A stretch of 38,528 nt of DNA from a virus. Positions within the stretch are counted from its first letter, which is position 1; each line of letters opens with the position of its first letter. A program made the translations under genes and the position numbers. Shown piece after piece: positions 8,293 through 29,587 of the stretch. The notes below the pieces were generated by a model that was given only the letters and a program-made list of their open reading frames with translations, ran no database searches and had not been told where the DNA came from. The stretch is taken from positions 1 through 38,528 of the IMG/VR virus record IMGVR_UViG_3300030085_003066; one strand, written 5' to 3'.

Positions 8293-8300
8293 TATTTATA
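8293..8300 (-). promoter_or_regulatory. Perfect late promoter box at psbD stop
   Basis: The minus strand reads CTATAAATAAG, with an exact T4-type late box TATAAATA overlapping the psbD stop codon TAA (8296-8298). Downstream are two hairpins and the HExxH gene. Confidence 0.6.
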
Positions 8301-9390
8301 GTGCGTTGCCTCGTGGAAGAACTTCTTCTGGGAAGATAAAGTTCTCATGTGGTTGGTCAGCAGGTGCCATCCAAGCACGGAGTCCTTCATTCAACAGGAT
8401 GTTCTTTGTATAGAAGGTTTCAAACTCTGGATCTTCTGCTGCACGGATCTCCTGAGAGACGAAATCGTAAGCACGGAGGTTGAGAGCAAGACCAATGATG
8501 CCAATGCTGGATGTCCACAAGCCCATAACAGGAACAAATAGCATGAAGAAATGAAGCCAACGTTTGTTGGAGAAAGCAATCCCAAAGATCTGAGACCAGA
8601 AACGATTGGCAGTAACCATTGAATAGGTTTCTTCTTCCTGTGTCGGTTCAAATGCTTTGAACGTGTTCGCTTGTTCACCATCTTCAAAGAGTGTGTTTTC
8701 AACTGTTGCACCATGGATAGCGCAGAGCAATGCTCCCCCCAGGATACCTGCAACTCCCATCATGTGGAAGGGATTCAAGGTCCAGTTATGAAATCCTTGC
8801 AAGAAAAGTAGGAAGCGGAAGATTGCTGCGACACCGAAGGATGGAGCAAAGAACCAACTGCTCTGGCCCAGAGGATAGATGAGGAAAACAGAAACGAAGA
8901 CAGCAATGGGACCAGAAAAAGCGATTGCATTGTAAGGACGGATACCGACAAGACGTGCAATCTCAAACTGACGGAGCATGAATCCGATCAGTGCGAAAGC
9001 ACCGTGGAGGGCAACGAATGCCCAGAGTCCACCGAGTTGACACCAGCGGACGAAGTCTCCCTGTGCTTCAGGACCCCACAGGAGAAGGAGACTGTGACCC
9101 ATTGCATCAGCAGGTGTGCTGACAGCAGCGGTGAGAAAGTTTGCACCTTCGAGGTAACTGGAAGCGAGTCCGTGGGTATACCAGGAGGTAACAAAGGTGG
9201 TGCCAGTAAGCCAACCACCGATTGCCAAGTAGGCAGTAGGGAGGAGGAGAAGTCCAGACCAGCCAACAAAGACAAACCTGTCTCGTTTCAACCAGTCATC
9301 AAGGACATCAAACCAACCCCTTTGTTGTTGTTGGAGCGTTGATGCGACCATTTTATTTGCTGTAAGTGTCGTAGTTGAGGCGATCGTCAT
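8296..9390 (-). CDS. psbD: Photosystem II D2 protein
   Basis: The frame encodes the full D2 protein, with [20 protein letters not shown] at the N-terminus and the five-helix core (including [20 protein letters not shown]). The conserved end is [15 protein letters not shown]2 pairs with D1 to hold the PSII reaction-centre cofactors, and phage copies replace photodamaged host protein. The long frame has 364 residues. An internal ATG at 9351 would give 351, the usual length. The longer start begins MTIA like host D2 but overlaps the upstream gene by 38 bp; neither has a clear Shine-Dalgarno. Confidence 0.98.
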
Positions 9391-9686: not shown

Positions 9687-10763
9687 TCAACCGATGCTAG
9701 GAGCGGTGAGTGCAACAGGAGTTGACTCAGCAGCAGCAAGATCGAGGGGGAAGTTGTGAGCATTACGCTCGTGCATAACTTCCATGCCCAGACCTGCACG
9801 GTTCAACACGTCTGCCCAAGTGTTCAGGATGTGACCCTGGTTGTCTTGGATTGACTGGTTGAAGTTGAAACCATTGAGGTTGAAAGCCATAGTGCTAACA
9901 CCAAGGGCAGTAAACCAAATGCCCACAACGGGCCAAGCAGCAAGGAAGAAATGAAGAGAGCGACTGTTATTGAACGAAGCATATTGGAAAATAAGCCGTC
10001 CGAAATAACCGTGCGCCGCCACGATGTTATACGTCTCTTCTTCTTGACCAAACTTGTAGCCATAGTTCTGAGACTCCTGCTCAGTCGTCTCACGAACGAG
10101 GGACGACGTGACCAGACTGCCGTGCATAGCAGAGAACAAAGACCCACCAAATACACCGGCAACACCCAGCATATGGAAAGGATGCATAAGGATATTATGT
10201 TCAGCCTGAAAGACGAGCATGTAGTTGAACGTACCGGAAATGCCAAGAGGCATGCCGTCTGAAAAACTGCCCTGCCCAAACGGGTAGACAAGGAAAACTG
10301 CGGATGCAGCAGCGACCGGAGCGGAGTAAGCAACACAGATCCATGGGCGCATGCCCAGACGATAAGAGAGTTCCCACTCACGTCCCATGTAGCAGAAAAC
10401 GCCAATCAGGAAGTGGAAGACAACCAGCTGGTAAGGACCACCGTTGTACAACCACTCATCAAGAGAGGCAGCTTCCCAAATGGGATAGAAGTGGAGACCG
10501 ATTGCATTGGACGAAGGAACAACAGCACCAGAGATGATGTTGTTGCCATAGATGAGAGAACCAGCAACAGGTTCGCGGATGCCATCGATGTCCACGGGGG
10601 GAGCAGCGACGAAAGCAACAACGAAACAGATGGTGGCAGCAAGAAGAGTGGGGATCATCAGGACACCGAACCAACCGACATACAGACGGTTGTTGGTGCT
10701 GGTGGTCCACTCACAGAAAGACTCCCAGGTCGATTGCCGGGAGCGTGAAAGAGTAGCAGACAT
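9687..10763 (-). CDS. psbA: Photosystem II D1 protein
   Basis: A 358-residue D1 precursor starting [20 protein letters not shown]. An in-frame ATG 51 bp upstream would add residues not found in D1, so 10763 is chosen. Core motifs include [40 protein letters not shown] and the manganese-ligand end [13 protein letters not shown], with the processed tail [15 protein letters not shown]1 turns over fast in light, and phage-made D1 keeps PSII active. The gene is continuous, with no intron. It has its own leader (about 130 nt from a TAAATA box) and terminator, so it is likely monocistronic. Confidence 0.99.
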
Positions 10764-10808
10764 TGAAAAAGGGTTATGTAATAGTGCGGGGAACACTGAA
10801 AAAATATT

Positions 10809-10831
10809 CCTCACCTACCCTCCAGGTGAGG
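10809..10831 (-). promoter_or_regulatory. Terminator-like hairpin in psbA leader
   Basis: Stem CCTCACCT (10809-10816) with AGGTGAGG (10824-10831), 7-nt loop, is followed on the minus strand by AATATTTTTTC. It lies about 45 bp before the psbA ATG. It may end the glycan operon or attenuate transcription begun at the TAAATA box at 10902. Confidence 0.6.
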
Positions 10832-10921: not shown

Positions 10922-10946
10922 CCTACTTTTGTAAAGGCAAAGTAGG
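10922..10946 (-). other. Inverted repeat over the stop of the 286-aa gene
   Basis: CCTACTTT (10922-10929) and AAAGTAGG (10939-10946) form an 8-bp stem with a 9-nt loop across the TAG stop at 10923-10925. No T-run follows, so it is more likely an mRNA 3'-end stabiliser or regulator site than a terminator. Confidence 0.4.
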
Positions 10947-11783
10947 AGAGATTACGTTACGTTCAACGAACTCAGAGTGATCATGTTTAGCAAAAACAAA
11001 TGGATGTAGTCCAGTGATCTCTCTAAGTTCAGCAAGGATTTCTCGTCGCTCCTTCCACTGAGTAGGATGTCCTGCTTGTGGATGTCTTTTGCGACGATAC
11101 TTTTTACCCTGCTGTCCAAACAATATACCACAACTTCCTGCTCTGTGCAAATACTTTCCTCTCTTATCTCTCCATACTTCATGCCACCCATCTTCAATGA
11201 ATGTCATCTTCTTATTGGTGAACTGCTTAGCAGCATCGAAAGAGATCTGGTCACGGTTGGGACCAATCAATGCATACTTCCACCAGAGATCACCGAACTC
11301 TTCATAGTTCTCTAGACGACGCCAGATAGATCCCAGCACAGGACTGCTGTACTTCTTGAAGTCATAGTTCATCCACTTCAAGATCCGAGTGATCTGTAGT
11401 TGCTGCTCCTTGGTGTTCATGGAAGACATGAACCCCTCCAGGATCTCGTCATAGTATGAGTAGCGATTCACATGACGGATGACTGTGAAGGAATCCTCTT
11501 CAAAGTATCTCTTACTGTTCTCCACATACTCTTTGTTCATGATGTAGCAACCATCAATCCAAACGACCTCCTCACCCTCATCAAAAACCTTATGAGGATT
11601 GATCTTGACGTAGGAGGAACGGATACGAGGACAGGTATGGACACAGGGGATGGGTCGGAACTCCCATGGTCCTTTCCTCTCAACAGTATCGTCCGTGAAC
11701 ATCACATACTTGACATCCGGATCGTAGTAATTCTCATCAGGGATCTCATCATATCCATTAGTGATACAAGAGTAGATAATCAT
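10923..11783 (-). CDS. DUF616/TOD1-like glycosyltransferase-type protein (copy 1)
   Basis: A 286-residue protein with the repeated domain seen in four adjacent genes. Landmarks are the start IIYSCITNGYDEIP, VMFTDDT, PHKVFDEGEEVVWIDGCYIM, SYYDEILEGFMSS, KYSSPVLGSIWRR and IGPNRDQISFDAAKQF. The ITGGYD/FTD/WIDG pattern resembles DUF616 (TOD1/MUCI70), thought to be a glycosyltransferase-like family linked to cell-wall glycans in plants and found in bacteria. It is the last gene of the long glycan operon and overlaps copy 2 by 4 bp. A 29-bp segment (11242-11270) is identical to 12052-12080 in copy 2. Catalytic activity is unproven. Confidence 0.75.
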   Translation of the reverse strand: MIIYSCITNGYDEIPDENYYDPDVKYVMFTDDTVERKGPWEFRPIPCVHTCPRIRSSYVKINPHKVFDEGEEVVWIDGCYIMNKEYVENSKRYFEEDSFTVIRHVNRYSYYDEILEGFMSSMNTKEQQLQITRILKWMNYDFKKYSSPVLGSIWRRLENYEEFGDLWWKYALIGPNRDQISFDAAKQFTNKKMTFIEDGWHEVWRDKRGKYLHRAGSCGILFGQQGKKYRRKRHPQAGHPTQWKERREILAELREITGLHPFVFAKHDHSEFVERNVISPTLPLQK

Positions 11784-12595
11784 CGGTTCAATACGTTCGC
11801 CTCAATCATTGACTGGAAGTTGTGCTTGTAATACAACTTGGGAATCAAGCGAGTGCACCTACGGATCTCCTTGAGCATCTCATCTTCACGCTTGTACTGC
11901 TCCAGGTCTCCTGCCTGTGGGTGCTTGCCCAGACGGTTCTTCTTACCTGTGCGGTGATCAAAATCAATACCAACCTCAGGCCAGTAGTTCTGTGCTGGGT
12001 GTTTGATTGTCTTCCACGGGATTCCAGTCAGTTGCCGTGCAGTATCAAAGGAGATCTGGTCACGGTTGGGACCAATCAAAGAATACTTCCACCAGATATC
12101 GTGGAACTCATACATCTCAGGGATGATGTGTCTCCAGATTGATGCCAGTACAGGACTACAGTATGCCCTGAAGTCATAGTCCAACTCCATCAACGCCTCC
12201 ATGATCTCCACCATCTGCTCCTTGGTGTTGAAGGAAGACACATAACCTTCCATCACCTCCTCAACAAAGTTGAAGCGGCAGGGATGGATCATGTGGGTCA
12301 ACTTAGACCGTGACAGGATGCTCTTAGAGGTGTCAACAAACTCCTTGGTGATGGTGTAGCACCCATCAATCCATACAGTTTCCTGACCTGCCTCAAAGTA
12401 ATGGTGAGGACAGATCTTGGGGTGAGCAGACCGTCTCCGAGGACACTCGTGCTCTACCTTGATGGGGTAGGACTCCCACTGCTCAGGAACTTCTACTGTC
12501 CCGTCAGTGAAGGCAACGTACCTGACATCCGGATCGTAATAATGTTCATCAGAGAACTTATCGTATCCGTTGGTGACGCAAGTGTAGATAATCAT
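11780..12595 (-). CDS. DUF616/TOD1-like glycosyltransferase-type protein (copy 2)
   Basis: This 271-residue protein is close in sequence to copy 1. It has IIYTCVTNGYDKFSDEHYYD, VAFTDGT, CPHHYFEAGQETVWIDGCYT, EEVMEGYVSSFNTKEQ, AYCSPVLASIWRH and LIGPNRDQISFDTARQLTG. The SYYDE tyrosines of copy 1 are FVEE here, so the acceptor site may differ. ATGA overlaps on both sides indicate coupled translation. Both proteins share HPQAGDLEQYKREDE-like C-terminal segments. Confidence 0.75.
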   Translation of the reverse strand: MIIYTCVTNGYDKFSDEHYYDPDVRYVAFTDGTVEVPEQWESYPIKVEHECPRRRSAHPKICPHHYFEAGQETVWIDGCYTITKEFVDTSKSILSRSKLTHMIHPCRFNFVEEVMEGYVSSFNTKEQMVEIMEALMELDYDFRAYCSPVLASIWRHIIPEMYEFHDIWWKYSLIGPNRDQISFDTARQLTGIPWKTIKHPAQNYWPEVGIDFDHRTGKKNRLGKHPQAGDLEQYKREDEMLKEIRRCTRLIPKLYYKHNFQSMIEANVLNR

Positions 12596-13533
12596 GTTGG
12601 ATGTGGGAAGAAGAAAGGATCGTCGAAGTGTGACCTGATAGTTCGATTGGGTCTTCGCATGACACCAGTCTTTCTATTCGTATACCACAGGAGACTATGG
12701 TATGGGTTCAAAACGTTCAATTTTTTATACTTATAATCGAAATCAGATGACATATCTCCGAACAACCAGACAGGTTCATCACCCTCAGTAACGACAGCAC
12801 AGCGATAGTTCCTTGAGTTCTTTTCGAGACCAGTCACCTTACACAGGATGTCTACTGCCCACTCAGGGTTGACATGATACTTAGCACCATACTTACCACC
12901 CTTGTTCGCCCACCACTCGCCACCATGGCTGGCATCTGACCAGACATCAATCAGATCTCTAGCAGGAACAGTGTTGTACTTCACCTCACCCATCTGCAAT
13001 GCCACTGCAAAGGACAGTTGATCTCTCCTACCTCCCTTGAGGTACCAGTCCCACCAGAGTTGATCGAAGTCAGTCTTGCCCCTCCTCCAGAGGATCGTAC
13101 ACAGTGGTGACAGATAGTCTTTGAAGTTATACCCTGCCTCAGCAGCAGCAACCGTGAACTTATACACATCATCGAAGGGAACCAGTCCCCTACAAATGTA
13201 TTCAGCACACTCTTCAAGGTACCTATGACAGTGTGGATGCTCTATTACAGTAAAACTATCCTGCGAAAGTATGAATTCAGATACTTCACAAAACTTATTG
13301 TTTAGTGTATGAAGTTTACTCGCATCGATATACACATTCGGTTCGTCGAATGGGCATAGCATCTTGACTATACGTGACATACGTACAGGATCAGATGAGA
13401 ACCCAGGGATGTACTCCAGTTCCCATCCTTCCTGCTCCTCTACACTTCCATCATGGAAACAAACACACCTACAATCAAGATCTAATTGTGGTAACTGAAA
13501 GTATCCGTTGGTGATGGATGTGTAGAGGATCAT
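12592..13533 (-). CDS. Divergent DUF616-like protein (copy 3)
   Basis: A 313-residue protein with the same plan but more drift: ILYTSITNGYFQLP, CVCFHDGS, NVYIDASKLH in place of WIDGC, HPHCHRYLEECAEYICRGLV in place of the SYYDELLEGF region, YLSPLCTILWRR and GGRRDQLSFAVALQMG. A C-terminal extension of about 60 residues (from AVVTEGDEPVWLFGD) is absent from copies 1-2 and includes DFDYKYKKLNVLNPYHSL. It overlaps both neighbours by 4 bp. The loss of WIDG suggests a changed or inactive site. Confidence 0.65.
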   Translation of the reverse strand: MILYTSITNGYFQLPQLDLDCRCVCFHDGSVEEQEGWELEYIPGFSSDPVRMSRIVKMLCPFDEPNVYIDASKLHTLNNKFCEVSEFILSQDSFTVIEHPHCHRYLEECAEYICRGLVPFDDVYKFTVAAAEAGYNFKDYLSPLCTILWRRGKTDFDQLWWDWYLKGGRRDQLSFAVALQMGEVKYNTVPARDLIDVWSDASHGGEWWANKGGKYGAKYHVNPEWAVDILCKVTGLEKNSRNYRCAVVTEGDEPVWLFGDMSSDFDYKYKKLNVLNPYHSLLWYTNRKTGVMRRPNRTIRSHFDDPFFFPHPT

Positions 13534-16016
13534 ATGATGCCGTAGTGTTTCATGTAGAACTCATGAAACTTGTACTTGATATACAGGAGTGGTTTTAGTT
13601 TGGTGATCTTCTCTAGATCCTTTATGAACTGATCGACCTTGGTGTACTGAGTCTTTTCCCCATACTGAGGATGCTTCTTGACCCTACCAACCTTGTGCTG
13701 GAACCCCATCTTGATGCCAGAGTCAGACCTGTTCTCATAGTACAGAGGTTTGGTACCGGTCAATTGAACGGCAGCATCAAAAGGAATAGCATCCCTGTTG
13801 ATACCTTTCTTACTCCAATTATACCACTCTTTGTTGAACTTGATCGTGTCATCATACAGATACCTCCATACGATTGAGCACTGAGGACTGGAATACTTGT
13901 TGAACTTATAGTTTGTGTTGCTCAATGCCTCAGTGATCTCTACTCCTCCCTCATAGGGGAAGAAAGCACACGTAAATCCTTCCAGCAACTCGTCGTAGTA
14001 GGAGAACTTGCTGATGTTTCTGAGTGTGGTGAAGGGGAAGGAGTACAGACTCTTCTCAACAAACTCTCTGGTATGTACGAAGCATCCATCTACCCACACT
14101 GTGTAGGTTCCTTTGTCAAAGAACTCATGAGGATTACACTTCGGATAGAACGCCAGGTCTCTTGGGCATTCGATATCCAGATCTAGTTTGATGTACTCCC
14201 ATGGTCCCTCGGTGGTATCAATGGTTCCATCATGGAAGCACACATACCTGATGTCAGGGTCGTAGTAGTTGGTGCTAGGAATTTTGTCATGCCCGTTAGT
14301 GATGCACGTGTAGATAACAACCTGTTCCTTACGTACACGTACACCTTCTTGGTACGGATAGGTATTGAATGACAGTCCCAACTTGCCACCGATACCGTAG
14401 TACCTCATGTAAAACTCATGGAGTTTGTACTTGGAGTGCAGTTTTGCCTCAAGTCCAGTGACTCGATCAATGTCTTTGAGAAACTGATCTACCTTTTTGT
14501 ACTGCTCCAGGTCACCCAGTTGCTCATGCTTCTTGAGTCTGCCCTTCTTGTTCTTGAATCCAAATTTGATGCCACAATCATCCCGGTTGTCATAGAACCG
14601 TGGGGTTACACCTGTGAACTGCATAGCAGCATCAAAAGGAATCGTGTCCCGGTTGATGTACTTGCCCTGCTCATACCATTCCTCATTGAACTTGATCACC
14701 TCAGGTGTCAACTGTCTCCAGACAGCAGAGCACTGTGGACTGGAGTAGTTCAGGAAACTGTAATTCTTATCTGCTAGAGACTGGGTGTAACAGACTGCTG
14801 TGCTGTACTTGTAGAAGGCACAGGTAAATCCTTCCAGCAACTCATCGTAGTAAGAGAACTCTCCTCCATGACGTAGGACAGAGAAGGGGAAACACCCACG
14901 GGATCTGTCTATGAAGTCAAAGGTATGATCGAAGCACCCATCAATCCATACTGTGTATGCGTTGGGTGGAAAGAAGTCTTGTGGATTTGACTTGACATAG
15001 AACGCCAACTCTCTCGGGTTATCAATCCCAAGGTTCGAGACATCAATGTACTTCCACTCACCATTCTTCAGGGTGTCAGGGATACTGATCCCATTGTGGA
15101 AGATCCAGTAGTTTACTTTGTTGTGGAAGTAATTATTTTGAGGGATGTCATGCTGATTGGTTATGCATGTATAGACGTGCAACTTACTATGATCTATCGG
15201 TTCCCCAAACTCATGGGGCAGAGTAGGCACTGCTGCCTTCATTTTGGCAGCAGAAATATCAGTATCCCAGATCTTTACTAATTTCTTTTGGAAGTCAGTG
15301 ATCTGTTTGTTGTTTGGTCGATCAATATTATAAGAATCCTCGTACTTCTTGACCCGATTGGTGTTGTCAAGACTGACCTGCATCGGTACACGCAGTGCTA
15401 CCACTCCTGTTTCGTGCTCAGCAATTGCACTAGCAATCTGATCACGGTTGACACCTCTTCTATACCATTTTGCCCATGATCGATTCCACCTTCTGTTCTC
15501 CTCAAAGTTATGTCTCCATACAACACAGTTGATGGTCTGCTTGTAGTCCTTCTTGGGGTATGGGTTTTCCTCAGCGAGCATCTTCTGAGACATCTTAGTG
15601 ATGTCTACGCTGTTGGAGAACCCATCGGCATATAGTTTGTTGAATTCTTCTAGCAGAGTCCTCGGTTCAGGATGCTCTTGCAGTACAACAAAACCATGTG
15701 GATGTTGAAAGATTTTCTTGCTGTAATCAACAAGATTTTTGTCAATATTATATGCAGCGTCTACCCATACAAGTTTTGCATCAGGGTCTCTGAAGTAAAT
15801 GTGAGGTTGATGCTTGATAACATAAGACTTCCTGACAGGGCAGTCAGGAAGTTTATGATGGAGAGTAGGGATCAGTGAATCTATATGTACATACTCCCAC
15901 GGACCTTTGGTTGTAGGGATGCTTCCATCATGGAACAGAACATACCTACAACCTTCCTCAACATATGCGTCAGGAACTGAGTCGTATCCGTTGGTGATGC
16001 ACGTATAAAAAATCAA
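13530..16016 (-). CDS. Three-domain DUF616-like protein (copies 4-6 fused)
   Basis: An 828-residue protein of three tandem domains. Domain A is 1-250 (FYTCITNGYDSVP, WVDAAY, RGVNRDQIASAIAE; divergent). B is 279-541 (VYTCITNQHD, YTVWIDGCFDH, SYYDELLEGFTCAF, NYSSPQCSAVWRQL, NRDTIPFDAAMQFTG). C is 567-828 (IYTCITNGHDKIP, YTVWVDGCFVH, the same SYYDELLEGF, KYSSPQCSIVWRYL, NRDAIPFDAAVQLTG). B and C are the most alike and both end with a KYKxHEFYMxxYGI segment. The start codon is TTG, overlapping the upstream TGA, unlike the ATG of copies 1-3. No signal peptide. Likely several glycosyl-transfer steps or a repeating-unit enzyme, by inference. Confidence 0.75.
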   Translation of the reverse strand: MIFYTCITNGYDSVPDAYVEEGCRYVLFHDGSIPTTKGPWEYVHIDSLIPTLHHKLPDCPVRKSYVIKHQPHIYFRDPDAKLVWVDAAYNIDKNLVDYSKKIFQHPHGFVVLQEHPEPRTLLEEFNKLYADGFSNSVDITKMSQKMLAEENPYPKKDYKQTINCVVWRHNFEENRRWNRSWAKWYRRGVNRDQIASAIAEHETGVVALRVPMQVSLDNTNRVKKYEDSYNIDRPNNKQITDFQKKLVKIWDTDISAAKMKAAVPTLPHEFGEPIDHSKLHVYTCITNQHDIPQNNYFHNKVNYWIFHNGISIPDTLKNGEWKYIDVSNLGIDNPRELAFYVKSNPQDFFPPNAYTVWIDGCFDHTFDFIDRSRGCFPFSVLRHGGEFSYYDELLEGFTCAFYKYSTAVCYTQSLADKNYSFLNYSSPQCSAVWRQLTPEVIKFNEEWYEQGKYINRDTIPFDAAMQFTGVTPRFYDNRDDCGIKFGFKNKKGRLKKHEQLGDLEQYKKVDQFLKDIDRVTGLEAKLHSKYKLHEFYMRYYGIGGKLGLSFNTYPYQEGVRVRKEQVVIYTCITNGHDKIPSTNYYDPDIRYVCFHDGTIDTTEGPWEYIKLDLDIECPRDLAFYPKCNPHEFFDKGTYTVWVDGCFVHTREFVEKSLYSFPFTTLRNISKFSYYDELLEGFTCAFFPYEGGVEITEALSNTNYKFNKYSSPQCSIVWRYLYDDTIKFNKEWYNWSKKGINRDAIPFDAAVQLTGTKPLYYENRSDSGIKMGFQHKVGRVKKHPQYGEKTQYTKVDQFIKDLEKITKLKPLLYIKYKFHEFYMKHYGII

Positions 16017-16759
16017 TTTAGTTTGTCAATAGGGTTTGATTTACCCATTGCTTCACTGACGGTGCGGTTGGTGACGTTACCAGGTTCACGGAGGAACCAC
16101 CCAGTGGCAATGTACTTAGATTTATCGCCCGTCAAGAAGGCACCACGGTGCATGTGGGTGTACGTAGCAGGCCAAAGAACAATGGTTCCCTTCTTAGGAT
16201 GGAACGTGGTTGCCTGATGGTAGAAGTCAGTGCCACCACCATTCTCAGGGGGGATGTCATTCAGATAGATCATCCAGGTCAGCACACGGTCTCGGTAGAG
16301 GAAGTTCCCATTCTCACAGTGCCATACGTGATACCCACCGCCTGGATCTGTGCGCTGAAGCTTACAAGTCCAAGATGAAATTGGATCACACGAGTCAACA
16401 AGACCTTTATATTTCTGAACATACAATTCAAATGCTTGACCGATTGCCTGGTTGACCTGGGCGGTCATCGTCGTGTCACATACTTCGAGATAAAGTTGGT
16501 GATCTTTCCGACCCATGCCACCCTTAGGGAATTGAGACTCCCCATCATTGAAGTGGTCGATGGTAAAATCATTTTTGGCGATGGAAGTGATGGTGTGCTC
16601 GGAGGACTCTCCTACAAAATGCTTTTTGTTGTACCAGTATTCAAAGACTTCACACAAAGAGTCACAGAACTCCCACTTGACGAAGTTCTCAAACACACCG
16701 ATGTGATCATAGAAAACTGGTTCAGTGAAGTCAGGTTGCTTGATGATCTCTTCTGTCAT
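16013..16759 (-). CDS. 2OG-Fe(II) oxygenase, prolyl-hydroxylase type
   Basis: A 248-residue protein with the dioxygenase motif WHCENG (His147, Glu149), then WMIYLNDIPPENGGGTDFYH, and the distal His in THMHRGAFL (His202/204) with a basic residue in DKSKYIATGW for 2OG binding. It has Glu instead of the usual Asp in HxD. Such enzymes hydroxylate proteins, sugars or small molecules with 2-oxoglutarate and oxygen. It lies between the DUF616-like array and a GT25 gene with 4-bp overlaps, so it may hydroxylate an acceptor protein for glycosylation, as collagen-type GT25 systems do; that is inference. Confidence 0.85.
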   Translation of the reverse strand: MTEEIIKQPDFTEPVFYDHIGVFENFVKWEFCDSLCEVFEYWYNKKHFVGESSEHTITSIAKNDFTIDHFNDGESQFPKGGMGRKDHQLYLEVCDTTMTAQVNQAIGQAFELYVQKYKGLVDSCDPISSWTCKLQRTDPGGGYHVWHCENGNFLYRDRVLTWMIYLNDIPPENGGGTDFYHQATTFHPKKGTIVLWPATYTHMHRGAFLTGDKSKYIATGWFLREPGNVTNRTVSEAMGKSNPIDKLN

Positions 16760-17556
16760 TGTTTTTGTGCTTGTTCCATGTACACAGATGGTGGTATTCT
16801 ACCACAATATTCATCTAGTTCCATAATCTGATCGATGGTGTGCTCTCTTGCATCCCTCTCCCAGAACTGTGCCAGTGCTTCGTTACTACCCTTATGGAAG
16901 ATGTCAATATGTTCTTCATGAATTGAAGAACCCATGTCCAATCTGTAATTGAATAAGGGAGTGGAGTAAGACTTACCACTGTCAAGAATCAAATCCTCTG
17001 ACACTGCACGAGGTCTGATGTTCTGATCCAGTTTCCACTGGTTGCCACGGAGGTGACACCGGAGGACCTTGGTTGCATGGTGCCTGCTGATCAAGTAACC
17101 AGCAGCAGAGAAGTCATTGATGAACCTCTGGTGCAACTTGAGAGTGATCCCATTGGGATTGATGATGGTCAGTTGCAGGCAGTCCCAGTTGATGGGGAGT
17201 CGCTTCCTGACATCCTTCCAAGTGAAGGTCCAGTGCTTGACAGTGGAGAGATCGATGTCGTCTTCCATGATGAAGACTTCATCCAGGTCAGTCTCTTCGA
17301 CAAAGTAACGTAGAGCATTGAGGTGAGACATTACACATGCAATCTCACCCTTGTTCATATTATGAGGAACAGATCCTTTCAGATGCTCCTCATATTCATC
17401 ACCGTCAACACCGCTGATGCGGTGGTGGTCAGTGAGTCCCCAGAAGTCCAGTTGTTCTTCCATGTATGCCCGACGTTTGGGCACACGGTCTAGGTTGATC
17501 CAAAGAACTTTAGGAAACCCCTTCAGTTTGTCGATGGACTTGTTCCTGTCAGTCAT
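16756..17556 (-). CDS. Glycosyltransferase family 25
   Basis: A 266-residue protein beginning with the GT25 pattern KVLWINLDRVPKRRAYMEEQ. Then come GEIACVMSHLNALRYF (residues 70-85) and IMEDDID (97-102), the DxD-like metal and donor site. GT25 includes LPS galactosyltransferases (LgtB/LpsA) and collagen galactosyltransferases. The adjacent oxygenase overlaps by 4 bp. The donor sugar cannot be read from sequence. No membrane anchor is evident. Confidence 0.88.
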   Translation of the reverse strand: MTDRNKSIDKLKGFPKVLWINLDRVPKRRAYMEEQLDFWGLTDHHRISGVDGDEYEEHLKGSVPHNMNKGEIACVMSHLNALRYFVEETDLDEVFIMEDDIDLSTVKHWTFTWKDVRKRLPINWDCLQLTIINPNGITLKLHQRFINDFSAAGYLISRHHATKVLRCHLRGNQWKLDQNIRPRAVSEDLILDSGKSYSTPLFNYRLDMGSSIHEEHIDIFHKGSNEALAQFWERDAREHTIDQIMELDEYCGRIPPSVYMEQAQKQ

Positions 17557-18511
17557 TCATACCCCGGCGCTTGCCGTTGAGAACACCACGATACTTCAGG
17601 TAAGGAGGGTTCTTGTAGTATTCTTCAAACTTTGTCTTACCAAAGTTACGAAGTTCTTCCCACAGAGAACGGTTCTCTTCGATGTGGGGGTTGTTGAACC
17701 AGGAGTTAGGGGTACGACGGTGCTCCATGTGGTACACCAGGTCATTCAGACGCAGCACCTGGGAGCAGGTGTTGAAACGAATGTACCGTTCGTCATCTTC
17801 ATACCCGTAGGCAATGAACCCTTCGTTCTCACCACCCAGTCGGAGGTATTCTTTGGTGTCAAAGAACTGCACGAAACCAAACTTGGCGTCATACAGAGTT
17901 GCATGCGACTGGAATGCGTTGAAGTTGAAGTTGCTGTTGATGAACCGAGTGCAGTCCTCATCAGTCACTCGCAGTTGATACTGGTAGTCGCCATACCCAT
18001 AGGGGTAGACACACTTCACAGGTTCAGGAGTTGCATTCGGTTCGTTCGGGGGAATCCAACCATAGAGAATGGCGTTCTGTGCCAGGATGTAGTTGTTCAT
18101 CGGCAACAGAACATCGCAGTCATAGTTACAGACCACAGGAGTCTGAACCAGCATCAGCATGTCGTTGATCAGACGAGTGCGGTGGAAGACTTCTTCCTCA
18201 CTCTCCTCAAAGATGTGATGAATCTTCGTCATCTTCTCAGGAGTCAATGCCTGATCAAGCATCGGCACCACAGACTTCAGGAAGATAGACTCAACGTCTT
18301 GCTCCTTGATGATGATCTGTGTGTCAAAGTTACGCAGCAGATAGATCAGTGTCGTCGTGATGTTACGCATCCGATCAACACTTTCAATCCGCAGGGGGAT
18401 GATGAAAGTAGTTTGAGTCAGGTCCCAGGAATTTACCGGCTGGATCTGAAGATCCTCGTACATCCCGAGGTCTTGGATCTCAACACCTTCCTGTTGAATA
18501 GTATCAGACAT
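17549..18511 (-). CDS. Glycosyltransferase with GT7C-like C-terminal domain
   Basis: From ATG 18511 the protein has 320 residues (an upstream in-frame ATG at 18595 would overlap the GT11 gene by 92 bp and is less likely). It contains TQTTFIIPLRIESVDRMRNI, a GT-A N-terminal strand, VCNYDCDVLLP as the DxD metal site, and RLGGENEGFIAYGYEDDERY, which matches the galactosyltransferase C-terminal domain (GGFNEDF.GYGxED pattern). Start and stop overlap the neighbours by 8 bp. It probably adds Gal or GalNAc/GlcNAc to a glycan. Confidence 0.8.
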   Translation of the reverse strand: MSDTIQQEGVEIQDLGMYEDLQIQPVNSWDLTQTTFIIPLRIESVDRMRNITTTLIYLLRNFDTQIIIKEQDVESIFLKSVVPMLDQALTPEKMTKIHHIFEESEEEVFHRTRLINDMLMLVQTPVVCNYDCDVLLPMNNYILAQNAILYGWIPPNEPNATPEPVKCVYPYGYGDYQYQLRVTDEDCTRFINSNFNFNAFQSHATLYDAKFGFVQFFDTKEYLRLGGENEGFIAYGYEDDERYIRFNTCSQVLRLNDLVYHMEHRRTPNSWFNNPHIEENRSLWEELRNFGKTKFEEYYKNPPYLKYRGVLNGKRRGMND

Positions 18512-19292
18512 CGATAGATTCCCAGTTAGGGCAATAAAGGTCAGAAGTGTTATGGTCTTTGGTATACCCCGTGCCGAACCAACGGTTAGGAGCAATGATT
18601 TTCTTGTCTGGGTTTGTACTCAGCCAAGAACCCCACCAAGAGAATGATGAGTTAGCAATGATGAAGTCGTGGCAAAGACTCATCATGCAGAGGTCGGCAA
18701 CATTGTCACCACCCTCAGAGATCAAGAAACGATCGTCTTCAAACTGTTCGTTACACCAAGCAGGATCGTCAGAGAAAACAACGACAGTCCTGTCACTATC
18801 AAAGTGCGAGAGTGCACGATCATAATAATCTTTAGAACACGGAGGGTGGTTATCGCAGTTAGTTATGTAGTCACCTCTCCGAACATGTAGAGCAATTGGT
18901 CGGTCAACCGAACCAATCATCTCCTGACAAGGTTCTTTGATGTTGTTCTTGAACTCAAAGTCCTCACGGATCTCTGATTCAATATGCTTGAACCACTTCT
19001 CACTCTGCAGATACCCGTAGACATTATGTCCATCGGGCATCCTGTCGAACAGGTTCTGATCAAAGTGGAAGTGCTCCTCCTGTACGTAGGGACCAGGACA
19101 TACTGCGATGTTAGTCAGACCAGGAAGTTTGAATGCTTCAAACAGTTGGTGGTCCATCCACTGGTCTTGGAAGTCACTAGGAGGAATACAGAACTCATAC
19201 CCATGCTTAGCAGCAATGCCACGCAGTCCTGCATACTGGAACATCTGGTTACCCAGACGACCATGACGACCAAGGTGATTGAATCCAATCAT
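18504..19292 (-). CDS. Alpha-1,2-fucosyltransferase family (GT11)
   Basis: A 262-residue protein with GRLGNQMFQYAGLRGIA at the N-terminus, HVRRGDY at residues 136-142 (donor-binding motif), VVVFSDDPAWC, and NSSFSWWGSWLS near the C-terminus. These are the four GT11 blocks seen in WbsJ/FutC-type bacterial alpha-1,2-fucosyltransferases. It uses GDP-fucose or a related GDP-6-deoxyhexose. The gene overlaps the GT2 gene upstream by 4 bp. This makes a GDP-deoxyhexose donor likely, although no GMD/GMER pair is in the window. Confidence 0.93.
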   Translation of the reverse strand: MIGFNHLGRHGRLGNQMFQYAGLRGIAAKHGYEFCIPPSDFQDQWMDHQLFEAFKLPGLTNIAVCPGPYVQEEHFHFDQNLFDRMPDGHNVYGYLQSEKWFKHIESEIREDFEFKNNIKEPCQEMIGSVDRPIALHVRRGDYITNCDNHPPCSKDYYDRALSHFDSDRTVVVFSDDPAWCNEQFEDDRFLISEGGDNVADLCMMSLCHDFIIANSSFSWWGSWLSTNPDKKIIAPNRWFGTGYTKDHNTSDLYCPNWESIDV

Positions 19293-19972
19293 TTATGCTT
19301 CTCCTTCAAGTATTCAATCTCCTTAGGTAAAAGGTCTTCAAACTTTCGTTGTGTTTGATGGGGGTGTTCCCTGTTAGAAATGTGGTAGTGAGTAAGAACT
19401 TTTGGATCACCATAGTTCTTATACAACCGATAGTACATGTCACAGTCCATCAGCATGGTGAGTTCTTCATCAAAATATTCACCACACCCATTACGGAGAG
19501 CGAGGATAGATGGAGAACTGAGGGTGTTGACACCCTCTAGCAACTGATTGTTATAGACTGGAATCTTAGGGTTGTAGTGGGTCTTACCATCATCTAGGGT
19601 ATGAGCAAATCCAGTCACTGCCCACTCCACTCCTTCGGTAAAAGCAGCATCAAGTTCAGCGGTTAGATTCTTAGTAAGAATCATATCATCACTGAAGATA
19701 ATTTTCAAGATCTCACCATCTGCTAAACGCAAAGCGTTATTAGTATTAGCAGAGATGTTACCCACCTTACTTGGATTGCGAACGTAGTTGATCTCAAAAA
19801 GATCATCGTACTCTTCACATGCTTGTAGAACTTTGTTTGATGTGCCATGGTCTGACACCCAAACGTTGAAGTTCATTTCCGTCTGCAATGACAAACTATG
19901 AAAGATGTCAAACAGATACTGCTGACACCTTGGGTTCTTATCATGCGTCGGAATGCAAAAACTTACCCTCAT
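19289..19972 (-). CDS. Glycosyltransferase family 2
   Basis: A 227-residue GT-A protein beginning MRVSFCIPTHDKNPRCQQYL and LSLQTEMNFNVWVSDHGTS, the usual nucleotide-binding half of GT2. It has SANTNNALRLADGEILKIIF followed by SDDM, the DxD-type motif. The C-terminal half is short and soluble. It sits between GT10 and GT11 genes with 4-bp overlaps on both sides, consistent with one glycan-assembly unit. The sugar is unknown. Confidence 0.88.
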   Translation of the reverse strand: MRVSFCIPTHDKNPRCQQYLFDIFHSLSLQTEMNFNVWVSDHGTSNKVLQACEEYDDLFEINYVRNPSKVGNISANTNNALRLADGEILKIIFSDDMILTKNLTAELDAAFTEGVEWAVTGFAHTLDDGKTHYNPKIPVYNNQLLEGVNTLSSPSILALRNGCGEYFDEELTMLMDCDMYYRLYKNYGDPKVLTHYHISNREHPHQTQRKFEDLLPKEIEYLKEKHK

Positions 19973-20760
19973 TTCCCGACAAATTCCTTGATTTTTCTAG
20001 TGAGTCTAGGGACTACGTCATTTTCACTATGGAATTGCTTGGCAATCTCATAGTTTTCTTCGATGGCACTCTGTCTCCAGTCGTACTTGTCTGCATCAAG
20101 ATGTTTCATGATGCATTCAAGTTCTTCTAGGTCATGGAATACAATCACTCCATCCATGTTGAACCAGTCACCGAGGTTAGGACAACCGTAGTAAATGGGT
20201 ACCGTTTTTGACGCAAAGCAATCAATAATCTTTTCAGTAAAGTAATTCTGCTGACGAGAATTCTCTACTGTGATATGGAACTTGGCAGTCTCAAAGAAAT
20301 CGTTCCTCCTATCATGGAAAGGAGGTGACTTATGTGCATAGTATTGCAAACCATTGGAAACGTCAACTTTTTTGAGCATCTCAAAAATTTCGAGACGCAT
20401 CTTGTGACCAACAGTTTGACTCTTATTGCTGGTAACAAAGGAGATGTTGTTCCCCTTGTCCAGAATAAGGTCAGAGAAGTTCAACCAACTGGATCCCCAC
20501 TCAAACAATTCTGCTTGAGGGTATTGGTCGATGATCTTCTGAGTGAACGTGTAGATCTTATCGAAGTGATAAGCACCACGAAGTGCTCCCTCAGTGACCG
20601 TAGGAAGGATTGAGTATGGTTCCGCTAGGAACAGAATCTTTACGTCTGCCTGCGGATCATAATCAAGGTTATCAATAGAGATGCTGACAGACTTACCACC
20701 AAGGTCAAGATGCTTGTCTTGCCAGGGGTTCCACCACAGAGGATAGTATTTTACTGTCAT
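19969..20760 (-). CDS. Fucosyltransferase-like protein, GT10
   Basis: A 263-residue protein with the GT10 C-terminal signature: AKFHITVENSRQQNYFTEKI then IDCFASKTVPIYYGCPNLGD. The N-terminal half is smaller than in alpha-1,3-fucosyltransferases of Helicobacter (about 300-480 residues, often with heptad tails), and no tail is present. GT10 uses GDP-fucose with GlcNAc or similar acceptors. Its neighbours are GT2 and a DUF5672 protein, both with 4-bp overlaps. Confidence 0.88.
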   Translation of the reverse strand: MTVKYYPLWWNPWQDKHLDLGGKSVSISIDNLDYDPQADVKILFLAEPYSILPTVTEGALRGAYHFDKIYTFTQKIIDQYPQAELFEWGSSWLNFSDLILDKGNNISFVTSNKSQTVGHKMRLEIFEMLKKVDVSNGLQYYAHKSPPFHDRRNDFFETAKFHITVENSRQQNYFTEKIIDCFASKTVPIYYGCPNLGDWFNMDGVIVFHDLEELECIMKHLDADKYDWRQSAIEENYEIAKQFHSENDVVPRLTRKIKEFVGK

Positions 20761-21428
20761 CGTATCTCTTGAAAATGATAATGAAAACCGAAGGTCTCAA
20801 TTCCTTCGTGCTCTGGGCACTCTACTTCTTTAGAGAACCTAGCGGCAACTTCCACTGGAGCAAAGACGCATCCCTGCTCCTCAAAAAGATGCCGGTTGTG
20901 GACGCATATGTTTCCGTCCTCATTATATAGTCCGGCATTCATATGTTTGTAGAAGGTGCCTTCGTTCACCTCCCAAGGAATCACGACACGGCTGGGGACT
21001 TCCAGTAGTTTTCTTGAACGTAAGGAAAACCCTCCATTGCCCACTCGTTGGTTCTTACCCCAGGGATCGAGGAAGGCACCTGGGTCATCTCTCCACGGGG
21101 CACCGATGTAGTCGTATTGTAACCACGCATCATCCCAAAGCCAAGGTCGAATAACAAAACCGTCAGGATGGATAAGGAGGCAATGCGAGGTCCGAATATG
21201 ATTGAGAAGATTATATATGCAATAAAAATTGAAATCATTGATACTCTGGATTGGATAGGTTTCCTCATACTGTGCTTGATCACACAGACCATCGGGTTTT
21301 CCTTTGCTACCAAGAAACTTGACAGCACCCCATTCAATTGCTTCGCATGATTTATTTACCGCATACACGGCGTCAGGAATGTCAACGTCTGCCAACATGA
21401 GCAGAGTTACATCAGGAATCTTTCGCAC
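20757..21428 (-). CDS. DUF5672-like glycosyltransferase
   Basis: A 223-residue protein with a GTG start (GTGCGAAAG) overlapping the upstream gene by 17 bp. It has CLLIHPDGFVIRPWLW, YDYIGAPWRDDP and VGNGGFSLRSRKLLE, then EDGNICVHNRHLFEEQGC, the pattern of DUF5672, a family presumed to transfer sugars in surface glycan clusters. The central LIHPDG is in the position of a metal motif. The N-terminal residues MRKIPDVTLLMLADVDIPDA form a first beta-strand and helix. Confidence 0.78.
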   Translation of the reverse strand: MRKIPDVTLLMLADVDIPDAVYAVNKSCEAIEWGAVKFLGSKGKPDGLCDQAQYEETYPIQSINDFNFYCIYNLLNHIRTSHCLLIHPDGFVIRPWLWDDAWLQYDYIGAPWRDDPGAFLDPWGKNQRVGNGGFSLRSRKLLEVPSRVVIPWEVNEGTFYKHMNAGLYNEDGNICVHNRHLFEEQGCVFAPVEVAARFSKEVECPEHEGIETFGFHYHFQEIR

Positions 21429-22317
21429 GTTTCACTGCTCGGTTGAACACTGAGTATAAGTCTAGCAGATTGATGTCAATATTTCTAGCTTTGTCACACA
21501 GGTCTTGTGCATTAGACAACATCGTTTTATTGATCTTGCCGAAGTCATCTACCCACAGGACAGGATAATCTTTATAAAGTTCTTCCAGATACTCATCCCT
21601 CACCATGATAGGGACACGTTTGAGGTACAACACCTCCCAGTTCCTATGGCAATCGACTGCATTACCTTGAGGACAGATCATAAACTTATGATCCTGAATG
21701 TCCCTCACATAGGTCTCGTAGTTTACTCGGTCTCTGACGGTGGCGTACGATCTTTCACTAAAGATTGAACGGATGTTACCACGTTCACTGAGGTTAGTGT
21801 GCTCTGCATGATTGATGTACAGAAGCTTTCTAGGTTTTGGGTCAGTCTGCATAGCGTTGAGTAGAACGCTTTGCCTGTCGTCGTTCGCATGTAACTTCCT
21901 CCCCACCCCATAAGGGAACGGGTGAAGTTTGCCACCGAAACCCAGGGCATTGGCAGCAAAGACACCCAAGACATTGTCTGGAATATCTATGTCTTCATTG
22001 ACTGGAGTGTCTTCATTATTACAGAAGACTACAAACTTCTTATCTGGATAAGAAGCACAGAGTTTCATCAGGTCATTGCGTTTCTGCAGACCGTTGATCC
22101 AGATCTGATCCTGTTTATTATTACACTTGATTGGTCTATGGTATAGACGTATGTTATCAATGAAAAGTTTGATGACCTCTTTATCACACAGGAAATCTGT
22201 GTTGGAAGGGTTGGCATCATGCATGAATGCCCCATGAACCCCACCAACCATGCCTGCCTGGTCACCGAAACTGTAGTCACATAGATTGGCGACTGCAGGA
22301 CCAGAGATTAGTTTCAT
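21412..22317 (-). CDS. Exostosin-like glycosyltransferase
   Basis: A 301-residue protein with a C-terminal HKFMICPQGNAVDCHRNWEV LYLKRVPIM segment, like the exostosin (GT47)/GT-B C-terminal motif in which the conserved region binds the nucleotide sugar. Preceding landmarks are KLLYINHAEHTNLSERGNIR and FVVFCNNEDTPVNEDI. No membrane helix. It lies between GT17 and DUF5672 genes with 4- and 17-bp overlaps. Specific sugar unknown; the family call is by motif only. Confidence 0.68.
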   Translation of the reverse strand: MKLISGPAVANLCDYSFGDQAGMVGGVHGAFMHDANPSNTDFLCDKEVIKLFIDNIRLYHRPIKCNNKQDQIWINGLQKRNDLMKLCASYPDKKFVVFCNNEDTPVNEDIDIPDNVLGVFAANALGFGGKLHPFPYGVGRKLHANDDRQSVLLNAMQTDPKPRKLLYINHAEHTNLSERGNIRSIFSERSYATVRDRVNYETYVRDIQDHKFMICPQGNAVDCHRNWEVLYLKRVPIMVRDEYLEELYKDYPVLWVDDFGKINKTMLSNAQDLCDKARNIDINLLDLYSVFNRAVKRAKDS

Positions 22318-23159
22318 ACCTTGACGAATTTCTTGAGTTTACGGTTCTTCTGAGACCTAACGTATGCAGGGAAGGTGTCGTCAATCTCTACGACAGTTGG
22401 TTGGTAGAGATAAGTACGTCCATAGGGGTCAAGGTTGTGCTTGATCCGGTCCTCCATACTGGAACGGAACTCCTCAGTGTTGTTTTCCTGGTGCTCATAG
22501 GCATCCATCTTCTGCCGCACAGTGTCAGCATCACCAAAGAAACTCCAGTGCCATGAGGCGTCTGCCAGTTTGTATGCATCTTGGTGTGACTGACGGAGTT
22601 TGTCAACACTCATTGTCTTCAGTGTCTTGAAGTCACACACTCGTGTGCCCATCCACTGGTCCTCACACTTGACGTTGAGGTAGTAGTAATACAGTGGACC
22701 AGTCAAGACGTAGTGGTTAGCAGGATCAAACCACTCATCAATACACTTCAGTGCTTCGGGGTTAGCAATCTCATCTGCATCACTCGTAAGGATGATGTCA
22801 CTATCCTTTGCCTTGCCTAGCAGAGCATAGATTGCACTGTCCTTATGGAAGCATGCACGTTGGTATGGCAGTGGTAGTTTATAGATATCATCTTCCATCA
22901 TGCTCCGGTGGTACGGAACATTCTCCCAAAAGTTCTCTAGTGTCTCGTTATCATCAATCGTTTCATGATAGATGATCTTGTCTTCCCACTTCTTGAACCG
23001 CTTACGGTTCTCTGCAAAGTACATCGGTTTGGGTTTACCGGTGAACGTGATGTTGGATTCGTTGATAACAAAGTAATCTACTACGTTACCAAGGATGTTC
23101 ATCCGTAGTTCAAGGAGATCAAGTTCATTATAGAACGTGAACACATCATAGATTGCCAT
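22314..23159 (-). CDS. Glycosyltransferase family 17
   Basis: A 281-residue protein beginning IYDVFTFYNELDLLELRMNI with VDYFVINESNITFTGKPKPM, the hallmark of GT17 (beta-1,4-GlcNAc transferase III-like). SDIILTSDADEIANPE follows, with the DAD metal-binding triad. This family is found in animals and in many phage and bacterial glycan clusters. Its neighbours are an oxygenase (14-bp overlap) and an exostosin-like gene (4-bp). The acceptor is probably a phage-made glycan. Confidence 0.9.
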   Translation of the reverse strand: MAIYDVFTFYNELDLLELRMNILGNVVDYFVINESNITFTGKPKPMYFAENRKRFKKWEDKIIYHETIDDNETLENFWENVPYHRSMMEDDIYKLPLPYQRACFHKDSAIYALLGKAKDSDIILTSDADEIANPEALKCIDEWFDPANHYVLTGPLYYYYLNVKCEDQWMGTRVCDFKTLKTMSVDKLRQSHQDAYKLADASWHWSFFGDADTVRQKMDAYEHQENNTEEFRSSMEDRIKHNLDPYGRTYLYQPTVVEIDDTFPAYVRSQKNRKLKKFVKV

Positions 23160-23688
23160 AATTTATGTTCAAAGAGAAGCGTACATTAGTGGAGGGAGAA
23201 GAACTTGAGTGGAGTGTTCTGCCATCAAACACAATTATTTTACCACGTTCAGGTTCTTCAGTATGTATTACCTCACCAGATTGATTGAAGAAATAGGTAT
23301 CTCCATCTGAGTGATTGGGATAGTAGAGTGCTACCAGGTGAGGACGATCGTCATCGACGTGAGCATTGTGGGGGACACCCACAGCGTCAGGTCTAGGGTA
23401 TTGCAGGGTCATGTGTGCCCTGAACATCTTCTTGTCTGGTAGGTTGATTGCCTTACCAATCTCATCCCACGGGAACTTATAAAAAAAGTCAGACGTTGTG
23501 CCCTTGACGTGCAACAACGTATGACTGAAGTAAGGATTCATTTCTTTTCTCATGGGATGGTCTACGTTGCCGTAGGCACAGTCCTTGAAAAAATAGTAGG
23601 GCATCTCATAGCACAGGTTCTCAATCAGTTTCTGATGAGTAACCTTGAGTCTATACCTCGTAACTAAACAAGAAGTCTCGTTGTTCAT
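23146..23688 (-). CDS. 2OG-Fe(II) oxygenase
   Basis: A 180-residue protein. HNAHVDDDRPHLVALYYP supplies HxD (His110, Asp112), the jelly-roll strand continues as DGDTYFFNQSGEV, and GKIIVFDGRTLHSSSSP holds the distal His160, with Arg170 for 2OG. The overlap with the upstream gene is 38 bp. A start at Met29 (23604) would remove it and leave the catalytic part whole. Substrate unknown; its place in the glycan operon suggests sugar or protein hydroxylation. Confidence 0.83.
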   Translation of the reverse strand: MNNETSCLVTRYRLKVTHQKLIENLCYEMPYYFFKDCAYGNVDHPMRKEMNPYFSHTLLHVKGTTSDFFYKFPWDEIGKAINLPDKKMFRAHMTLQYPRPDAVGVPHNAHVDDDRPHLVALYYPNHSDGDTYFFNQSGEVIHTEEPERGKIIVFDGRTLHSSSSPSTNVRFSLNINYGNL

Positions 23689-29231: not shown

Positions 29232-29587
29232 ACCAAATAATCTAGAATTGAATTGTTAGAACGTCCGTAGTCATCCTCCAGGCGGATGATGTCACGTTCG
29301 CTGCATTGACCACGCTGCACTTCAATAAAAGTGAGTCCATCATCACCTGCTTGAGCACGATGACGTTGCTCAATGCCAATGGTAAAACTGCTTCCAGGTT
29401 TGCATGGGATCTCATCATGACCCAGGGTGACGATGCCATCACCATGGATCACAACCCAATGCTCTGATCTATTTCTGTGAAATTGGAGGGAGAAACGTTG
29501 CCCTGGATTTAGATGGATCTTCTTCAGTCTGTAGTCTGACCCATCTTCAATAGTTTCATACCAACCCCAAGGGCGTTCTTCTCTCAT
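29228..29587 (-). CDS. Cupin, mannose-6-phosphate isomerase type II-like
   Basis: A 119-residue protein reading RPWGWYETIEDGSDYRLKKI then LNPGQRFSLQFHRNRSEHWV and GSSFTIGIEQRHRAQA. These are the metal-binding His/Glu residues of the cupin half of ManC/ManA type II enzymes. Alone it would isomerise fructose-6-P to mannose-6-P or modify a sugar phosphate. It lacks a guanylyltransferase half, so GDP-mannose would come from the host. It overlaps the small ORF upstream (ATGA). Confidence 0.85.
   Translation of the reverse strand: MREERPWGWYETIEDGSDYRLKKIHLNPGQRFSLQFHRNRSEHWVVIHGDGIVTLGHDEIPCKPGSSFTIGIEQRHRAQAGDDGLTFIEVQRGQCSERDIIRLEDDYGRSNNSILDYLV

Follow-up and report, generated by a model that had tools for sequence, protein, structure and literature searches.

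The array and its domains

The window analysed here is the whole 38,528-nucleotide stretch of DNA formed by positions 1 to 38,528 of the IMG/VR virus record IMGVR_UViG_3300030085_003066. On its minus strand it carries an array of six related domains, predicted to be glycosyltransferases (GTs) and encoded by four adjacent genes, between a gene for a 2-oxoglutarate (2OG) oxygenase and psbA (Table 1, protein lengths in amino acids, aa). By profile comparison and predicted structure the domains form a divergent branch related to PF04765, and similar arrays, built from four domain classes in a mostly fixed order, were found in many uncultured cyanophages of the ocean.

Table 1. Coordinates of the array, its domains and the flanking genes in the window
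Feature	Position	Strand	Remarks
A286	10923..11783	-	286 aa, PF04765-related putative GT, class delta, last domain of the array
B271	11780..12595	-	271 aa, PF04765-related putative GT, class delta
C313	12592..13533	-	313 aa, PF04765-related putative GT, class gamma; YIDAS, Asp and RRD retained
828-aa fusion	13530..16016	-	TTG start; three PF04765-related domains (D1 alpha, D2 beta, D3 beta)
D1 (alpha)	~15186-16016	-	residues ~1-277 of the 828-aa protein
D2 (beta)	~14349-15182	-	residues 279-556 of the 828-aa protein
D3 (beta)	~13533-14321	-	residues 566-828 of the 828-aa protein
psbA	9687..10814	-	PF00124; directly downstream of the array
psbD	8296..9390	-	PF00124, phrog_182; matched isolates annotated "photosystem II D2"
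2OG-Fe(II) oxygenase	16013..16759	-	PF13640 (7.4e-12); directly before the array, 4-nt overlap
GT25-family glycosyltransferase	16756..17556	-	PF01755 (3.8e-12), phrog_2835
Rest of the GT run	17549..24424	-	GT7C, GT11, GT2, GT10, DUF5672; below cut-off a GT47-like product, a second 2OG oxygenase and a GT11-like product; also GT17
DUF5672 protein	20757-21428	-	PF18922 (1.9e-17), inside the GT run
FkbM-like methyltransferase	within 24421..29587	-	below cut-off; in the same block as the sugar-nucleotide genes
GDP-mannose 3',5'-epimerase-like	25074-26174	-	PDB 2c59, 7.8e-80
RfbH/ColD-type dehydrase-like	26174-27475	-	nearest RfbH/ColD type, below the RfbH cut-off
Epimerase-like	from 27466	-	within 24421..29587
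dTDP-glucose 4,6-dehydratase	28290-29231	-	TIGR01181, 377.6 vs 365.1 bits
PMI-type cupin-like	29228-29587	-	similar to the C-terminal region of mannose-1-phosphate guanylyltransferase/mannose-6-phosphate isomerase

BLASTP comparisons among the six domains gave a match for each of the 15 pairs, with E values from ~7e-9 (C313-D2) to 6e-103 (D2-D3), and 21 alignment columns were invariant. The claim of the first-pass annotation that four adjacent genes carry six homologous domains is borne out, and chance sharing of motifs was ruled out by the same pairwise matches. The closest pairs, D2-D3 (55% identity) and A286-B271 (47%, E 5e-90), are those named in that annotation. Each pair of neighbouring array genes shares 4 nt, as do the array and the 2OG oxygenase gene, which suggests that these genes are translationally coupled.

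Family and predicted fold

The 828-aa protein matched PF04765 (TOD1_MUCI70, the former DUF616) with an E value of 0.0026 and 17.6 bits, under the cut-off of 21.4, and A286 and B271 matched phrog_26101, annotated as glycosyltransferase (5e-9 and 2e-6). In a set of 75 diverse array domains (A2, the six window domains included) 25 matched PF04765 at E <= 0.05, the best at 1.8e-5, and no other family was matched by more than two. Eight bacterial loci with relatives of the array domains were found in one scan of genome contigs; all eight matched PF04765, six over the cut-off, and with regard to host copies none of the eight was titled as a cyanobacterium. The glycosyltransferase of Cellulophaga phage phi17:1 scored 29.3 bits against PF04765 and aligned over residues 2-182 of A286; a search of viral contigs for relatives of this enzyme gave three loci, all 97-100% identical to it. 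Profile A4, made from the eight bacterial relatives and the Cellulophaga glycosyltransferase (itself over the cut-off), was compared with the phage profile A2 and matched with a probability of 99.9 and an E value of 5.8e-32 over 198 columns. A search of PDB sequences with A1 gave no match up to E 10.

PF04765 corresponds to CAZy family GT116 (excerpt of PMC11765706), and in vitro galacturonosyltransferase activity on rhamnogalacturonan I is described for Arabidopsis MUCI70/RGGAT1 of this family (excerpts of PMC10576798 and PMC11765706). The array was filed as a divergent relative because the 828-aa protein and ten further domains stay below the Pfam cut-off; by profile comparison its domains are a divergent branch related to PF04765/GT116 and not Pfam members by Pfam's rule. 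Among sampled genomes of two bacterial classes, PF04765 matched 11 of 385 and 9 of 391 (samples that include the centre genomes G021 and G025), with at most two matches per genome, never adjacent, and one per open frame; it revealed no tandem expansion in these 776 genomes, although the profile misses phage-type domains and may thus overlook phage-like arrays.

The AlphaFold2 model of A286, made with the A2 alignment, had a predicted local distance difference test (pLDDT) score of 96.8 and a predicted template modelling score (pTM) of 0.92. Foldseek retrieved 15 PDB chains at E <= 0.001 with this model, the best being mannosylglycerate synthase (7.8e-5) and others including LgtC and alpha-1,3-galactosyltransferase. 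VIA-align matched it to LARGE1 (Z 11.8) and to UGGT and GT6 structures (Z 11.1), with root-mean-square deviations (rmsd) of 3.3-3.8 and 184-199 aligned. In BFVD the best match was a Cellulophaga phage glycosyltransferase (phi18:2, 4.4e-13), followed by a Tetraselmis virus DUF616 protein (1.3e-12), an Indivirus TOD1/MUCI70 protein (2.7e-11) and a Fadolivirus nucleotide-diphospho-sugar transferase (3.1e-11); the fifth match dropped to 9.8e-8. The model of the 828-aa protein (pLDDT 86.2) showed three GT-A-type domains in a row, with a pTM (0.53) too low to define how they pack; D1, taken as residues 1-230 of this model, matched the GT6 structure 4c2s with Z 11.7 and rmsd 3.2. The structure alignments took in neither L013, one of the related loci, nor the Cellulophaga locus L090. 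In the models of A286 and the 828-aa protein the array domains are thus predicted to adopt the GT-A fold. The relation to DUF616 and to a glycosyltransferase fold put forward in the first-pass annotation was upheld by these profile and structure comparisons, and the domains are very probably glycosyltransferases.

Domain classes and their order in relatives

Relatives were collected in two IMG/VR scans, one giving 12 loci and the other the best 80 of 274 relatives, the two sets overlapping; six re-fetched contigs were dropped from the counts and near-identical contigs were left in. The 85 domain-bearing sequences examined include the window, L013 and L090, and 81 of them carried at least two domains. 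From 334 domains, four of less than 200 aa were dropped, and merging of identical ones among the remaining 330 left 278 distinct domains, one of which is the Cellulophaga domain.

A tree of 44 of the 278 distinct domains and nine outgroup rows, two of these being long branches, resolved four classes with branch supports of 100/100 for alpha, 100/96 for gamma, 96/96 for beta with two small satellites and 98/93 for delta. All phage array domains grouped apart from the bacterial members and the Cellulophaga enzyme (100/100). The order alpha-beta-gamma-delta was held in 74 of the 81 arrays, the exceptions being L013, L077, L078, L079, L080, L088 and L089, in a tally that rests on profiles made from the same domains and in which three domains were ambiguous; if these three are counted as beta, the reading that the tree favours for L051, 75 arrays are in order. 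Fusion and copy number varied, the layouts including alpha=beta=beta-gamma-delta-delta as in the window (11), alpha=beta-gamma-delta (16), alpha=beta-gamma-delta-delta (10) and alpha-gamma-delta (9), with some arrays cut by contig ends. An alpha-beta pair duplicated into gamma-delta was considered and may apply; the rooted tree places gamma outside the remaining classes (93/69), and a single alpha+gamma clade was not rejected by the approximately unbiased test (p-AU 0.314).

Among 50,697 phage records, a set that may lack the nearest relatives of the window, the array was found only in AG-345-D19, and single domains occurred in eight Cellulophaga records. The survey of other cyanophages and the domain tree, both proposed in the first-pass annotation, yielded two or more domains in 81 of 85 sequences and four classes. 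To judge from the tree and the gene order, the four classes are old and their order is mostly fixed across uncultured cyanophages.

Conserved residues and selection

Residues are numbered according to A286. Asp77 (D77), which follows the strand 72-76 in the A286 model, was found in all 278 distinct domains, and position 79 was Cys, Ser, Ala, Thr or Leu in all of them and never Asp. D77 would occupy the place of the DxD motif of GT-A folds. The canonical D-x-D is a hallmark of GT6 and GT8 enzymes (a3GalT, LgtC, LARGE1) and is not present in the array domains. In At4g38500 a DGK variant lies at 299 and the proposed catalytic residue is Asp409, at a spacing of 110 (excerpt of PMC3522684); by spacing (101), D77 and D178 of the array domains may be the equivalents of these two sites. 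D178 was kept in 257 of the 278 distinct domains, and K60, D77, E113, R155, R177 and D178 were kept in all six window domains; D3 has N instead of H at position 104. Domains of classes alpha and gamma tend to differ from beta and delta at positions 78-79, 116-117 and 183. As a side observation, GC replaces the RD motif and WID/WVD stays in the alpha domains of L030, L059, L070 and 18 other loci, which are candidate catalytically altered transferases.

The WIDGC site reads YIDAS in C313 and WVDAA in D1. The first-pass annotation had regarded this motif as lost in these two domains; its Gly and Cys are indeed replaced, but its Asp is kept in all six. The corresponding place in the eight bacterial relatives reads D[AGS]N, so the two residues after the Asp are variable across the wider family. 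A division of labour between active and modified copies, drawn earlier from the motif loss, finds no support in that form: the Asp and the RD motif of all six domains are intact, and C313 and D1 are under purifying selection. Inactivity of the window copies through loss of WIDGC was ruled out on the same residues; judged by Asp and RD, C313 and D1 are not disabled.

The ratio of nonsynonymous to synonymous substitution rates (dN/dS) relative to L006, L011 and L012 was 0.10-0.20 for C313 and D1 and 0.03-0.11 for A286, B271, D2 and D3. All six window domains are under purifying selection (0.03-0.20). Against the close relative L005 the values were 0.05-0.30 across the six domains, on few changes.

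Genomic context

Megablast of both flanks gave cyanophage matches, mostly to psbD, gnd and zwf among the matches listed, and with psbA and psbD these agree with the cyanophage origin noted earlier. The relative G006, a 192-kb record, encodes sheath, baseplate and major head proteins; to judge by such relatives, the phage is a T4-like cyanomyovirus.

Of the 38 loci with at least 600 bases past the array, 36 had psbA downstream and on the array's strand; L072 and L087 lacked it. The distance, measured to the first aligned base and not to the start codon, was 84-247 bases in 35 of the 38 testable loci and 1057 in L013. PF00124 matched 20 of 21 whole records and missed that of L087, which is 13.6 kb long. 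In L084 (~11800-13700; G017:62238-63927) and in G018:1-1324, psbA occurs as two PF00124 pieces about 800 bases apart; in L084 a 223-aa open reading frame (ORF) lies between the pieces, intron- or insertion-like.

In 57 of 73 testable loci the 2OG oxygenase gene was the immediate upstream neighbour of the array, and in 46 of 47 the GT25 gene came immediately before the 2OG gene. Further upstream, as far as the contigs extend, the order of GT7C, GT11, GT2, GT10, DUF5672, GT47-like and GT17 genes was conserved, apart from an FkbM-like gene that some loci have inserted; by its position, the DUF5672 protein is perhaps a glycosyltransferase. L084-L086 have 1459 bases between the 2OG gene and the array, and in L084 (7692-9119) these hold a carbamoyltransferase gene, suggesting a carbamoylated sugar. 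The window oxygenase at 16013 also matched PhyH and, weakly, prolyl 4-hydroxylases (1.2e-3); for the 2OG-GT25 pair, a similarity to glycosyltransferase R655 was also weak (0.0079).

A different setting was found for L034, L042, L043, L044, L047, L048, L049, L053, L071, L073 and L074, which carry gamma-delta(-delta), or in L044 a lone delta. Upstream of their domains are a gp41-like helicase gene (11/11), mazG (9/11) and, where the contig shows it, uvsX-like and polB genes.

The sugar-nucleotide gene block includes a relative of GDP-mannose 3',5'-epimerase, an enzyme of plant L-galactose synthesis. Among the 21 products tested between 10923 and 29587 of the 53.6-kb record, none contained a membrane segment (19-residue stretch, Kyte-Doolittle score >=1.6). 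For the late promoter motif ATAAATA, two sites were found against 2.95 expected by chance. Elsewhere in the window, 1692-2804 on the minus strand encodes a radical SAM protein whose nearest families, by weak similarity, are of twitch-domain and maturase type.

Proposed function and alternatives

We propose that the six GT-A-fold domains act as a soluble, cytoplasmic relay of glycosyltransferases, in which the classes would act one after another, alpha, beta, gamma and then delta, each adding a sugar, and the beta and delta duplicates would add further or alternative sugars. The relay would extend an oligosaccharide that the neighbouring GT25/GT7/GT11/GT2/GT10/GT17 enzymes have started, using nucleotide sugars that may be partly phage-made; a uronic acid, as transferred by the characterised GT116 enzyme, is a possible donor. 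Most speculatively, the sugars would be placed on a virion protein encoded by the phage, which the neighbouring 2OG oxygenase might prime, much as chloroviruses glycosylate their capsids with enzymes of their own. As a whole this proposal is tentative, its chance being somewhat below even. The four old classes and their mostly fixed order favour an ordered relay of different transfers over one repeated transfer, and several different successive transfers are fairly probable. The great constancy of the operon and the GT25-2OG pair beside the array incline us to a virion acceptor, which is plausible, short of probable; the odds of a host envelope glycan are almost as good. It is unlikely that the full scheme holds, in which four classes, fixed in order, form a phage-specific assembly line linked to psbA, adjust chain length through fusion and duplication and place a defined heteroglycan on the virion; if it were true, gene order within one transferase family would spell out the glycan sequence.

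The same relay may instead serve the host surface: in the cytoplasm, during infection, it would decorate a precursor of lipopolysaccharide (LPS) or of a different envelope glycan and mask the receptor, with superinfection exclusion or protection from adsorption to debris as the benefit. This is a serious possibility, held with less than even expectation. Relatives of GT25 and GT11 occur in the "LPS clusters" of S-SM2 and, for GT25, of P-SSM2, the array adjoins psbA, whose product serves the living host, and short arrays occur without a GT operon in view; however, the constant operon order and sequence in divergent phages would be unexpected if the genes tracked variable host surfaces, and the absence of membrane segments from the 21 products leaves no flippase or polymerase among them. 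Glycosylation of phage DNA bases, rather than of protein or LPS, is highly improbable: 2OG oxygenases lie nearby and the domains follow replication genes in 11 loci, but the matches of the oxygenase at 16013 are to PF13640/PhyH and, at a weak level, to prolyl hydroxylases, the scanned products (part of the record's genes) include no base-hydroxymethylating enzyme, and no feature seen in the family suggests a nucleic acid acceptor.

Another account, which we consider doubtful, assigns catalysis to beta and delta; alpha and gamma would then be partners without catalysis of their own, holding the acceptor or fixing the length of the chain. It would fit the shared departures of alpha and gamma at positions 78-79, 116-117 and 183, the GC in place of R177-D178 in 21 alpha domains, the interleaving of alpha and gamma with beta and delta, and the alpha+gamma clade that the tree test left standing. 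Against it, all six window domains retain D77, E113, R155, R177 and D178, D1 and C313 are under purifying selection, and the alpha domains without D178 keep Cys79, so that the two departures do not go together.

Several results weigh against the proposed relay of PF04765-related transferases. A286, B271 and C313 had no PF04765 match in the Pfam search, none of the four window proteins passed the cut-off, ten non-window array domains scored singly were below it (five) or without match (five), and a PF04765 search of the phage's own genome gave no match. Foldseek TM-scores to solved structures, by query length, were a modest 0.31-0.45 among the matches listed. The 21 exceptions at D178, all Cys and all in alpha domains of other phages, mean that not every domain need be active. 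In 11 loci the array domains stand downstream of replication genes and no GT operon is visible, which tells against the array strictly requiring that operon. As to a collagen-like acceptor, no ORF of at least 80 aa with at least seven consecutive G-X-Y triplets was found in the pieces of G006 (one long record, cut into pieces), the window or the loci; the longest run, six triplets, is in the major head protein of G006. Soluble GTs also serve LPS cores, so the missing membrane segments do not separate the two acceptors.

Whether the large clusters of sugar genes in T4-like cyanophages have a function or are "stuffer DNA" was not settled by a 2010 survey of these phages (excerpt of PMC3037559). 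In the cluster described here, divergent phages share one gene order and purifying selection acts, and this speaks for a functional role; the viruses probably assemble a complex glycan themselves. As a target for experiments the array is small: its six domains are related and fall into four classes, their fold is predicted and their key residues are identified. The family, for which one characterised plant enzyme was found, gains a large branch of phage proteins.

Comparison with known systems

The LPS gene clusters of the T4-like cyanophages P-SSM2, S-SM2 and S-SSM7 resemble the window in their large size and related GT11 and GT25 genes (excerpt of PMC3037559), whereas the window cluster ends in the array, directly before psbA. 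In the cultured phages S-SM2, Sf-CH8 and Sf-FS3 the sugar clusters end in GT11 and GT25 with no PF04765-like array after them; in Sf-FS3 the two are separated by a gene whose annotation reads prolyl 4-hydroxylase-like 2OG dioxygenase.

PBCV-1 and mimivirus likewise encode GTs together with sugar-nucleotide genes; PBCV-1 a64r is a three-domain protein with a GT-A domain, and mimivirus L230 joins a glucosyltransferase to a hydroxylase (excerpts of PMC4691112). The adjacent 2OG and GT25 genes might correspond to the collagen-type hydroxylation-glycosylation of L230; the similarities given above are weak. In contrast to these viruses, the window virus is a bacteriophage without endomembranes, and no collagen-like acceptor turned up in the G-X-Y search given above. 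The glycosyltransferase of Cellulophaga phages phi17:1 and phi18:1 shares the relation to PF04765, and the phi18:2 protein is the best structural match in BFVD, but this enzyme has one domain and a C-terminal part and lies among head and packaging genes in a 38.8-kb genome.

With the TOD1/MUCI70 family the array shares profile homology, predicted structure and, putatively, the Asp of a DxD variant followed by a second Asp about 100 residues on. The bacterial matches seen, at most two per genome, lie one to an open frame and never side by side, in contrast to the up to six domains found here in tandem and partly fused. The first-pass annotation had regarded a tandem phage array next to a sugar operon as undescribed, and among the matches listed, judged by title and start of abstract, the open-access literature on DUF616, TOD1/MUCI70, cyanophage sugar genes and phage virion glycosylation describes none. 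As far as seen, the related enzyme family and the kind of phage cluster are known, and the tandem architecture and the linkage to psbA are apparently new.

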